Shown in pieces: positions 19,148 through 55,601 of a stretch of DNA of 64,000 bases. Numbering within the stretch: the stretch's first letter is position 1; each line of letters begins with the position of its first letter. The translations under genes and the position numbers were made by a program. The notes below the pieces were generated by a model. That model saw nothing but the letters and a program-made list of their open reading frames with translations. It made no database searches and had not been told where the DNA came from. This DNA comes from a bacterium (GTDB taxonomy: Bacteria > Myxococcota_A > UBA9160 > UBA4427): positions 1 through 64,000 of the forward strand of contig JANSYR010000021.1 of NCBI GenBank assembly GCA_024742285.1, in the 5' to 3' direction.

Positions 19148-19922
19148 GGGAGCCCTCCATCAGGATCGCGAAGACGCGGCTCGGCCACGTCTCGAGCACG
19201 TCCTTGAAGGCGTGCACGAACTCCCCCGCCCCGAAGCCGACGAAGAAGAGAAGCATGCCGACATGCAGGGGCAGGTTCACGAGGAGCAGGTTCAGCTGCG
19301 GCATCGCCCGCGCGAGCACCCCCGTCGCCATGTTCTGGACGAAGATCGCCACCGAGATCGGCGCGGCGAGCTGGAAGGCGAGCTCCCAGATCACGCTGCC
19401 GAGCGCCGCGATCTCCCGATAGACCCCCTGGCCCGGCAGGTCGCCGCCGATCGGCAGCGAATCGAAGGACGCGACGATCCCGCGGATCAGCTCGTGGTGT
19501 CCTCCGATGATCAGGAAGATCAGCATCGCGAACGTGTTGAACGCCGTACCGATCGCCACGGAAGAGGCCCCACTCGTCGGATCGAGGCTGCGCGCCGCGC
19601 CGAGACCGCCCTGGATCGCGACGAACTCGCCGAGCTGCAGGATGCCCGCAAAGACGAGGCCGGACCCGATCCCCACGATGACGCCGATCATCACTTCGAC
19701 GAGCACCGCCCCGGCCAGCGTCGCCATGTCCCATTGGGACGCCGCGAGCTCGGGTGTGCCCACGGGCGAAGCCACCCATGCAATCATGAGCGCCGACATC
19801 ATCCGGATCCGCATCGAGAGCGCCGGATGGCTGAAGACCGGCCCCGCGATCATCATCGTGAAGACCCGGACGCTGCCGAGCAGCGCCCAGAGAACGGGCA
19901 TCAAGCCGACCTCGAACGTCAC
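19137..19922 (-). CDS. fliR: Flagellar export protein FliR
   Basis: 261-residue inner-membrane export gate component with about six hydrophobic helices (VLWALLGSVRVFTMMIAGPVFS near the start, GMLLFFVGFGAGEFVHAF near the end). Size and place between fliQ and flhB fit FliR. The start is GTG at 19922. A 63-bp gap separates it from fliQ. Confidence 0.95.
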   Translation of the reverse strand: MTFEVGLMPVLWALLGSVRVFTMMIAGPVFSHPALSMRIRMMSALMIAWVASPVGTPELAASQWDMATLAGAVLVEVMIGVIVGIGSGLVFAGILQLGEFVAIQGGLGAARSLDPTSGASSVAIGTAFNTFAMLIFLIIGGHHELIRGIVASFDSLPIGGDLPGQGVYREIAALGSVIWELAFQLAAPISVAIFVQNMATGVLARAMPQLNLLLVNLPLHVGMLLFFVGFGAGEFVHAFKDVLETWPSRVFAILMEGSLGG

Positions 19923-52887: not shown

Positions 52888-54678
52888 TCAGTCCGGATCG
52901 GTCCCGGTCCGAACCTCGTCGACGCCCGCCGGAACCTCGACCCAACCGAGCGCGACCGCCCGCGCGACCGCGGACAGGACGGCCTGGAACGAGGCATCGA
53001 CGATGCTCGCCGCGCGCCCCGCGCCGAAGAGTCTACGATTCGCGCCGAAGACGACCTCGACGTAGGCCACCGCCGTAGCCCCGGCTCCGGCACCGAGGGC
53101 ATGCTCGTGGTAGTCGCCGATACGGAGCGGAACGCCGATCGCATCGCCGAGTCCCGCGACGAACGCGTCGATCGGGCCCGCGCCTTCCGCCTGGACCGGG
53201 ATCCGTCCCCGGCCCCAGCCGAGGGTCGCCGAGACGACGTCCTTCGCGCCGTCCCCGCTCGAGATCGTGCGATTCCCGACGAGCCTCGGCCCGCCTTCGA
53301 CGTCGAGGTAGGTGCGTTCGAAGAGCGTCTTCACGCGCTCGCTGACCAGCTCCTCCTCGTTCGCGTCGGCCCAGGCCTGCACGATCTTCGAGAAGTCGAT
53401 CTGCATCCGGCGCGGCAGCGCGTAGCCGTGCTCGGTCTCGAGCACGTACGCGACCCCGCCCTTCCCCGACTGGGAGTTGATCCGGATCACGGCCTCGTAG
53501 TTGCGTCCGACGTCTGCGGGATCGACCGGCAGGTAGGGCACCTCCCAGTGCGGAACCGACTCCGCGTCGAGGGCGGCCAGGCCCTTCCGGATCGCGTCCT
53601 GATGGGATCCCGAGAACGCCGTGTAGACCAGCTCCCCGGCATAGGGATGGCGCGGATGCACCGGCAGGCGATTCGCGTGCTCGACCTTCCGGACCAGCGC
53701 CGGCAGGTCGCGGAAGTCCAGCTCCGGATCCACGCCCTGACTCATCAGATTGAGGGCCAGCGTCACGACGTCGACGTTTCCCGTGCGCTCTCCGTTCCCG
53801 AAGAGCGTCCCCTCGACCCGATCCGCCCCGGCGAGCAGTCCGAGCTCCGCCGCCGCGACGGCACAGCCGCGATCGTTGTGCGGATGGACGCTGACGATCG
53901 CCGCCTCGCGCACGCGCAGGCTCCGGCAGAAGAGCTCGATCGAGTCGGCGTAGACGTTGGGCGTCGCGACCTCCACCGTCGCCGGCAGGTTCAGGATCAC
54001 CGGATTCGCCGCGTCGGGCTCGAGCACGTCCATGACCGCCTCGCTGATCTCGACCGCGTACTCGAGCTCCGTCGTCGAGTAGCTCTCCGGGGAGTACTCG
54101 AAGCGGATCGATTCGGAAGGTCGCGCGGCCGCCGCCTTCTTCACGCGCTTCGCCGCGTCGACTGCGATCTCCGTGATCCCCGGTCGGTCCTGCTGGAACA
54201 CGACCCGGCGCTGGATCGGCGACGTCGAGTTGTAGAAGTGCACGATCGCGCTCGGCGCGCCTTCGATCGCCTCGAAGGTGCGTTCGATCAGATCCTCGCG
54301 GCACTGCACGAGGACCTGGATCGTCACGTCGTCGGGGATGCGCTCCTCGTCGATGATCCTGCGCACGAAGTCGAAGTCCGTCTGCGAGGCCGCCGGGAAG
54401 CCGACCTCGATCTCGCGGAAGCCGATCGCGACGAGGGACTCGAAGAGACGGATCTTCCGATCCCATCCCATCGGCTCGACGAGGGCCTGGTTCCCGTCGC
54501 GAAGATCGACGCTGCACCAGCGCGGCGCGTGGTCGAGCACGCGATCGGGCCATGTGCGATCCGGAAGCTCGAAGCGCACGAAAGGCCGATAGCGGTCGTG
54601 GGGCATCGTATCCGGCCGATTCCCGGCCGGACGAACCCCGTCTCCTCGTTCCCTGTCTCGTTCGGAATGCGAATCCAT
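52888..54678 (-). CDS. leuA: 2-isopropylmalate synthase
   Basis: 596 residues. First committed enzyme of leucine biosynthesis (acetyl-CoA plus 2-oxoisovalerate). DLRDGNQALVEPM holds the catalytic region, and the metal site is in VSVHPHNDRGCAV and LFGNGERTGNVD. It belongs to the long LeuA class found in actinobacteria and some others (residues PFVRFELPDRTWPDRVLD). The C-terminal regulatory domain (RTISSGDGAKDVVSATLG...) is complete. The ATG at 54678 has GGAGAG upstream; a second ATG in frame (about residue 25, PHDRYRPF) also fits. It is preceded by a leucine leader peptide and terminator. Confidence 0.95.
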   Translation of the reverse strand: MDSHSERDRERGDGVRPAGNRPDTMPHDRYRPFVRFELPDRTWPDRVLDHAPRWCSVDLRDGNQALVEPMGWDRKIRLFESLVAIGFREIEVGFPAASQTDFDFVRRIIDEERIPDDVTIQVLVQCREDLIERTFEAIEGAPSAIVHFYNSTSPIQRRVVFQQDRPGITEIAVDAAKRVKKAAAARPSESIRFEYSPESYSTTELEYAVEISEAVMDVLEPDAANPVILNLPATVEVATPNVYADSIELFCRSLRVREAAIVSVHPHNDRGCAVAAAELGLLAGADRVEGTLFGNGERTGNVDVVTLALNLMSQGVDPELDFRDLPALVRKVEHANRLPVHPRHPYAGELVYTAFSGSHQDAIRKGLAALDAESVPHWEVPYLPVDPADVGRNYEAVIRINSQSGKGGVAYVLETEHGYALPRRMQIDFSKIVQAWADANEEELVSERVKTLFERTYLDVEGGPRLVGNRTISSGDGAKDVVSATLGWGRGRIPVQAEGAGPIDAFVAGLGDAIGVPLRIGDYHEHALGAGAGATAVAYVEVVFGANRRLFGAGRAASIVDASFQAVLSAVARAVALGWVEVPAGVDEVRTGTDPD

Positions 54679-54780
54679 CGTTCTCTCCGTGCCCCGCCCG
54701 CGAGACCGATTGGAGAGGTGCCCGACGCGACGGGCCGGCGCGTCTGCCGGCCTGTCATCGCGCCCGTCAATGGGGCGCGA

Positions 54781-54818
54781 AAGCAAAAGCCCCTCCGGCC
54801 GGTCAGGCGGGAAGGGCT
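54781..54818 (-). terminator. Intrinsic terminator (attenuator) in the leuA leader
   Basis: Minus strand: AGCCCTTCC, loop CGCCTGACCGGCC, GGAGGGGCT, then TTTGCTTT. The arms pair over 9 bp with one G-U. It lies 34 bp after the leader peptide stop and about 100 bp before the leuA ATG, so it can stop transcription before leuA. Confidence 0.8.
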
Positions 54819-54851
54819 TCGTCGTTCGTGAACCGTTTCTCAGTCCAGACG

Positions 54852-54938
54852 CTAGGCAGCCCCGCCCGCCCCGATAAGGAGCAGGAGCGCGAGAAGCCCG
54901 AGAAGGGTCCGGCTGGCGTGGTTCGTGAACTCGTTCAT
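54852..54938 (-). CDS. leuL: Leucine leader peptide (leuA attenuation)
   Basis: 28 codons: MNEFTNHASRT then LLGLLALLLLIGAGGAA. Eight of ten residues in the run are Leu, coded by CTT/CTC/CTG. It stops with TAG 34 bp before an intrinsic terminator that lies upstream of leuA. When leucyl-tRNA is scarce, a ribosome stalled in the Leu run would be expected to free an antiterminator, as in enteric leu operons. The sequence GTTCACGAAC occurs both near the peptide start and just before the terminator, which could supply alternative pairing. The ribosome site is weak. The alternative reading as a mini membrane protein is less likely given the context. Confidence 0.8.
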   Translation of the reverse strand: MNEFTNHASRTLLGLLALLLLIGAGGAA

Positions 54939-54971
54939 GGCATCGGGTAGTAGGGAACGGTGGGACGGGCG

Positions 54972-55601
54972 TCAAGCTTGAGCCCGTGTCGCGGCCACTG
55001 CGTGCCCCTCGTCCGCCGCCCAGGCGTCGAAGACGTCGACGAGGACCGACTTCGCCTCGGCCAGTGCGGCCCGGTCGAAGGGGCGGATCCGCAGGAGCGC
55101 GACGTCGCCGAACACGGGGTGCTCGAAGCGTCGGGTCACGACGAATCCGAGCCACTCGAAGAACCCCACGAGCGACGCATGGCAGTCGATCTCGACCACC
55201 TCGAGCTGCTCCGCGAGGGCGAACCGATAGGCCTCGATCGCGAGGGCGAGCCCTGCCCCCCCACGTCCACCTCGCGCGTCCTGCGCCGTGACCAGCCGCG
55301 AGACGACACCGGTCCGCGGCCCCTCGGACGACAGGATCGCGGGGTGGAACTCGGCGAAGGCTTCGAGATCCCCCCGACCGGGCACGTGGATCCGCAACGC
55401 ACCGATCAGCCTCGGCTCGCCGTCCGCGTCGCGCTCAAAGGCCCCTACGTGGATCGTTCCGCGATCCAGCGGTTCCGCCAGCCGCCGGGTCTGCGGATCT
55501 GCTTCGGGGTGGAGCCGTCCCATCTCCTCGACGAGGACCGCGTAGCGGAGCGCCTGGACCTCCTGGAGGTCGGCGGGATGGACGATTTCGCGGCAATACA
55601 C
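54972..55601 (-). CDS. GNAT-fold acyltransferase, autoinducer-synthase-like
   Basis: 209 residues. The sequence fits the N-acyl-amino-acid / autoinducer-synthase-like GNAT group: YCREIVHPADLQEVQALRYAVLVEEMGRL at the N-terminus (the R-x-x-x-F/L-x-E-x-G pattern), RTGVVSRLVTAQDARGG (acyl-CoA pocket), then DCHASLVGFFEWLGF. Such proteins include LuxI-like and exosortase-associated acyltransferases; the substrate is not known. The GTG at 55601 has a weak ribosome site. It is upstream of the leucine leader on the same strand, and its own start region holds an inverted repeat. Confidence 0.6.
   Translation of the reverse strand: MYCREIVHPADLQEVQALRYAVLVEEMGRLHPEADPQTRRLAEPLDRGTIHVGAFERDADGEPRLIGALRIHVPGRGDLEAFAEFHPAILSSEGPRTGVVSRLVTAQDARGGRGGAGLALAIEAYRFALAEQLEVVEIDCHASLVGFFEWLGFVVTRRFEHPVFGDVALLRIRPFDRAALAEAKSVLVDVFDAWAADEGHAVAATRAQA

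Follow-up and report, generated by a model that had tools for sequence, protein, structure and literature searches.

The leuA locus and its leader ORF

The window analyzed here, that is, the entire stretch of 64,000 nucleotides, carries on its minus strand a leuA gene for 2-isopropylmalate synthase (52888..54678) that is preceded by a hairpin resembling an intrinsic terminator (54781..54820) and, farther upstream, by a short open reading frame (ORF) of 28 codons plus a TAG stop (54852..54938), which encodes MNEFTNHASRTLLGLLALLLLIGAGGAA. The synthase belongs to NCBIfam TIGR00970 (score 761 bits; cut-off 697), consists of the Pfam domains HMGL-like, IPMS_D2, and LeuA_dimer, and carries the LeuA allosteric domain; its homology begins at 54606, and judging from the Shine-Dalgarno-like GGAGAG (54683-54688) that precedes the ATG at 54678, the latter is probably the start codon. 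The short ORF contains eight leucines among the ten residues LLGLLALLLL, specified by the codons CTT CTC GGG CTT CTC GCG CTC CTG CTC CTT (54876..54905). An earlier note on this DNA, made from the sequence alone, had described the 28-codon frame with its eight leucines and had placed leuA behind it and the hairpin, and both parts of this description are borne out. Among the ORFs of 15-60 amino acids on either strand of the window, this leader ORF alone reaches at least 8 leucines per 12 residues, and 40 dinucleotide-preserving shuffles of the window yielded no ORF of that size with such a density.

To place the leader in a comparative context, leuA was taken from 61 related genomes, which provided 37 loci with upstream sequence. 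In all 37, a Leu-run ORF, a complementary segment, and a terminator hairpin follow each other in the same order, so that the conservation of the Leu run, which the earlier note had proposed to check, is clear. The peptides of the relatives, measured from the start nearest the promoter, are 21-47 amino acids long, with 4-9 leucines per 11 residues. When the 37 leaders are compared with the leuA genes at the same loci, the Leu run proves to be enriched in rare codons: CTT accounts for 27.5% of the Leu codons in the leaders vs 3.5% in leuA, CTA for 11.5% vs 0.2%, and TTA for 4.5% vs 0.1% (chi-square p ~3e-87, with the codons taken as independent). The final Leu codon, CTT in the studied genome, is CTT in 30 of the 37 leaders, and the only two differences between one pair of loci with identical leader peptides (L001 and L002) both fall on third positions of Leu codons.

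Taken by itself, the peptide (MNEF...LLLLIGAGGAA) resembles a hydrophobic helix, and the upstream ORF ends close by, at 54972, such that the short ORF could encode an expressed small membrane protein or a signal-like peptide, with the hairpin merely terminating the upstream gene. We consider this most unlikely because the Leu run is kept while the N-terminal part of the peptide varies freely among the relatives, as do the spacer that precedes the terminator and the gene upstream, the Leu codons are the rare ones, the stop-proximal codons follow RNA pairing, and a promoter lies directly 5' of the ATG.

Promoter and leader start

This promoter, recognized by pattern comparison with the relatives, consists of a -35 element TTGACG (54970..54975) and a -10 element TACTAC (54947..54952; TAAWCC or TACACA in relatives) on the minus strand, separated by a 17-nt spacer. 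The general pattern, TTGAC followed after 16-18 nt by TA...., was matched in 33 of the 37 relatives. The leader ATG sits 8 nt past the -10 element, and the corresponding gap is 6-11 nt in the relatives in which a promoter could be paired with a start. In Streptomyces lividans, where the leuA leader is leaderless, the distance from the -10 element to the transcription start averages 6.3 nt, with a range of 4-9 (PMC8079986). Set against that distance, the gaps observed here imply a 5' untranslated region of probably 0 to about 5 nt, and with the start codon so close behind the -10 element, the leader ORF itself is probably leaderless. The -35 element shares bases with the stop codon of the acyltransferase-like ORF located upstream (54972-55601), for which no Pfam match was found; in six relatives (L003-L008), the end of a recG-like coding region occupies this place.

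Alternative RNA helices in the leader region

The GC-rich, terminator-like hairpin, whose 5' arm starts at 54820, has the structure GAAGCCCTTCC-C-GCC-TGACC-GGC-C-GGAGGGGCTTT, with 11 base pairs, one mismatch, and 3 more pairs (-25.5 kcal/mol). The hairpin itself had been correctly noticed in the initial inspection, which gave it a 9-bp stem and a T-rich tail; the stem is longer than that, and the tail, TTTTGCTTT, which runs to 54781, is a weak, short U-tract at which a simple terminator scan raised no flag. A hairpin with T-rich sequence behind it occurs in every one of the relatives. In an alignment of 31 leaders from 31 species, on which helix covariation was scored, 96.6% of the cells of the terminator helix are paired, with changes on both sides at 7 pairs. 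Another hairpin, P1 (54870..54885; CCTGCT-CCTT-ATCGGG), lies over the last Leu codons; 80% of its cells are paired, both-side changes occur in 4 of its 6 pairs, and in the studied genome one pair is broken by a mismatch. Jointly, the terminator and P1 are 92.1% paired, with double changes at 11 pairs.

The 3' end of the leader ORF contains a segment, GGCGGGCGGGG (54860..54870; hereafter segment 2), that is complementary to segment 3, CCCTTCCCGCC (54806..54816), which is the 5' arm of the terminator. Across the 31 aligned leaders, this part of the ORF (GGCGGGnGnGG) and the arm form a helix: 96.5% of the cells of the antiterminator helix are paired, compared with 59-67% when the register is slid by 1-3 columns, and double-changed cells number 13 vs 3.7 in column shuffles, which ignore kinship. 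The studied genome has a C-U mismatch at one of the antiterminator pairs. The antiterminator and the terminator have one strand in common and are mutually exclusive, and both covary. The clearest case is alignment column 186, which pairs with column 38 in one state (A-U 15, G-C 11, G-U 5) and has column 212 as its partner in the other (C-G 11, U-A 11, U-G 9), remaining paired throughout. Thus, the search for alternative helices and for covariation in relatives that the earlier note had suggested yields both.

The energies point the same way. Species-matched segments 2 and 3 pair at -26.8 kcal/mol vs -25.4 kcal/mol when swapped between species (p=1e-4), with decoys at -6.1 kcal/mol; at 27 further loci outside the alignment, which are not fully independent because they were found with a model and the best position was picked by energy, the same pairing is seen (-28.5 vs -6.7 kcal/mol). 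Segment 2 also folds onto the Leu-codon region, in 35 of 35 cases more stably than after synonymous recoding, which fits the expected 1:2 helix.

A different strand had originally been suggested for the antiterminator, namely, the near-palindrome GTTCACGAAC, which occurs in two exact copies 97 bp apart (54921-54930 and 54824-54833). This suggestion does not survive the comparison: the exact pair is unique to the studied genome among the relatives compared, a 5-bp GAACC/GGTTC remnant is seen in the nearest relatives only, GTTCACGAAC is absent in L003-L008, and the strand that covaries is GGCGGGCGGGG. The two exact copies could, alternatively, be operator sites for a repressor acting at initiation, a notion that we regard as scarcely plausible given the same restriction to one genome and the high frequency of this word in the window (13 near-copies with at most one mismatch vs 3.2 expected).

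Proposed attenuation mechanism

Together, these comparisons with relatives strongly support the proposal, already made in the earlier note, of a leucine attenuator ahead of leuA in a lineage different from the enterobacteria. We put the probability that the element subjects leuA to leucine-responsive, ribosome-mediated transcription attenuation at roughly 0.9, on the strength of comparative sequence evidence. Under this scenario, transcription would begin at the leader ATG or a few bases off, and a ribosome loading at the 5' terminus of the growing transcript would trail the polymerase. With ample charged leucyl-tRNA, the ribosome would pass the Leu codons, reach the stop codon (54852-54854), and cover segment 2, leaving segment 3 free, so that the terminator would form and transcription would stop short of leuA. 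Under a shortage of leucyl-tRNA, the ribosome would be expected to stall in the Leu run, freeing segment 2 to pair with segment 3; this pairing would block the terminator and allow leuA to be transcribed. Without translation, segment 2 would tend to fold on the Leu codons (1:2), favoring the terminator.

Distribution of the element and the linked synthases

The element accompanies isopropylmalate synthase genes, with an upstream gene that differs from genome to genome. A full covariance model of the element (R1) matched 68 of the 80 genomes representing the order (E<=0.01) and 69 of the 91 representing the class (E<=1e-5). In a sample of 379 genomes from the phylum, every match at E<=1e-6 fell within the class. 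In the studied genome, the leuA copy described here is the sole strong R1 match, the next ones, two of which were inspected, being terminator-only or weak. A core model (R2) gave a match at 19216-19289 of the window (E 0.0055), apparently inside a coding region, which we took as chance. Searches against Rfam, with its families of Leu leaders, T-box, and riboswitches, produced no match for the whole window at the gathering score and nothing credible for the leader region at E<=10. The studied genome also encodes a second, canonical LeuA (TIGR00973) that adjoins ilvC and pssA, and R1 found no match at that gene.

In many relatives, the same Leu leader is found ahead of a short synthase, about 385 amino acids long, that combines HMGL-like and HCS_D2 domains and lacks LeuA_dimer (L125, L126, L129, L130, L140, and others; three, L125, L129, and L140, were tested with Pfam and five with NCBIfam, and further ones were recognized by motif). 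Both the long and the short synthases are found behind the leader within each of four families (f1, f4, f7, and f12); in f7, for example, the long form is present in G064, G066, and G070, and the short form in G063 and G057. This distribution implies that, probably more than once, the synthase was exchanged or differentially lost under the same leader.

The same attenuator layout was observed with Trp-containing leader peptides (..AWTVWKWKVGGG.., ..LSWWKRAAGEEW.., ..DWCWQRFF..) at four loci, L139 (G063:C153), L150 (G054:C322), L152 (G050:C42), and L154 (G019:C24), where the leaders stand before genes for MFS-type permeases (Pfam MFS_1 shown for L139), making this arrangement a candidate for transporter attenuation by Trp.

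Relationship to other leucine leaders

The leu operon of enterobacteria, leuL-leuABCD, is controlled by an attenuator, and the principle proposed here is the textbook one: in its parts and in their logic, the element matches classical leu attenuation. Like enterobacterial leuL, the leader described here encodes a Leu-rich peptide with rare Leu codons and is followed by a mutually exclusive antiterminator and terminator ahead of isopropylmalate synthase. Unlike leuL, it is apparently leaderless, has segment 2 within the end of the leader ORF, favors the codons CUU, CUC, and CUA (for the codon theory of leader attenuation, see PMC1183508), precedes a leuA of the TIGR00970 rather than the TIGR00973 type, and has no match in Rfam.

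The leader also resembles the actinobacterial LEU element, or leuL1 (PMC1262725, PMC8079986). There, too, a short Leu-run leader that is leaderless in Streptomyces stands before leuA, the peptide ends in LLLLSCRGEGL compared with LLLLSRAGEV in relatives of the studied genome, and the terminal Leu codon is often CTT, followed by A. The LEU element has been described as lacking a typical terminator and forming a pseudoknot with the ribosome-binding site of leuA, and leader mutations in Streptomyces coelicolor leuA were reported to be at odds with classical attenuation (reviewed in PMC1262725); for that reason, a Leu leader alone is insufficient proof of attenuation. By analogy, the element could be translational or protein-bound, with the Leu codons (CUCCUU) pairing to the ribosome-binding site of leuA and no termination at the hairpin, and the complementarity of CUCCUU to AGGAG-type sites, the weak U-tract, and the similarity to the leaderless S. 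lividans leader (LLLLSCRGEGL; PMC8079986) would all be compatible with such a switch. It appears improbable, however, given that a translational switch requires neither a terminator nor an antiterminator, whereas here both covary, with the hairpin and the T-rich sequence after it retained in all relatives, in contrast to the Streptomyces leader, which reportedly is without a typical terminator. The R2 search matched no actinobacterial leader.

Leu-run leaders before TIGR00970-type leuA, with a terminal CTT-A, also occur in alpha- and gammaproteobacteria, where the downstream sequence and hairpins differ from those found here. The characterization of the element as a separate occurrence in the earlier note has to be qualified in view of such leaders in Actinobacteria and in alpha- and gammaproteobacteria. 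Outside the class, too, leuA is widely preceded by Leu-run leaders. Among the candidates there, the final Leu codon is CTT in 32 of 51, compared with 5% CTT in the leuA genes, and A follows the final CTT in 26 of these 32, vs 17%; this large excess of terminal CTT-A over leuA codon usage was noted among L031-L110, in Actinobacteria and Proteobacteria. The pattern is a lead only, because the candidates include false ORFs and related species, and we are inclined to doubt that the leuA leaders of several phyla share one undescribed rule, whereby the Leu run ends in CUU, in most cases with A as the next base. If true, the rule could reflect one ancient leader that travelled with leuA and was put to use again ahead of a different synthase or, alternatively, a common requirement for stalling or slippage at CUU-A. 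R2 found no match at leuA in 80 loci outside the class, and the weak R1 matches before leuA in an acidimicrobial genome (E 3e-4) and a gammaproteobacterial genome (E 1e-3) are attributed mainly to the terminator, so that common ancestry across phyla is unproven. Several actinobacterial genomes with records named Acidimicrobiaceae, Actinomycetota, or Actinomycetes (L034, L041, L043, L051, L052, and L057) contain very short Leu leaders before leuA, such as MTLSSSLLLLM, with a GC hairpin and a T-tract in between; unlike the terminator-less LEU element, these are possibly attenuators with terminators.

Implications

The findings reported here delineate a well-defined, class-wide family of probable attenuators without an Rfam model; in the open-access literature searched, leaving aside the 2004 survey of proteobacterial attenuators, no leuA attenuator has been described for a lineage of this kind. 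This clade combines leader peptides similar to those of Actinobacteria with a covarying terminator and so provides a clean point of comparison in the debate on the mechanism of the Streptomyces leuA leader. Furthermore, the presence of one leader before two isopropylmalate synthases suggests that the regulatory RNA persists longer than the enzyme under its control, and since one of these synthases lacks the LeuA allosteric domain, leucine may, in the genomes concerned, control that enzyme mainly through the leader.
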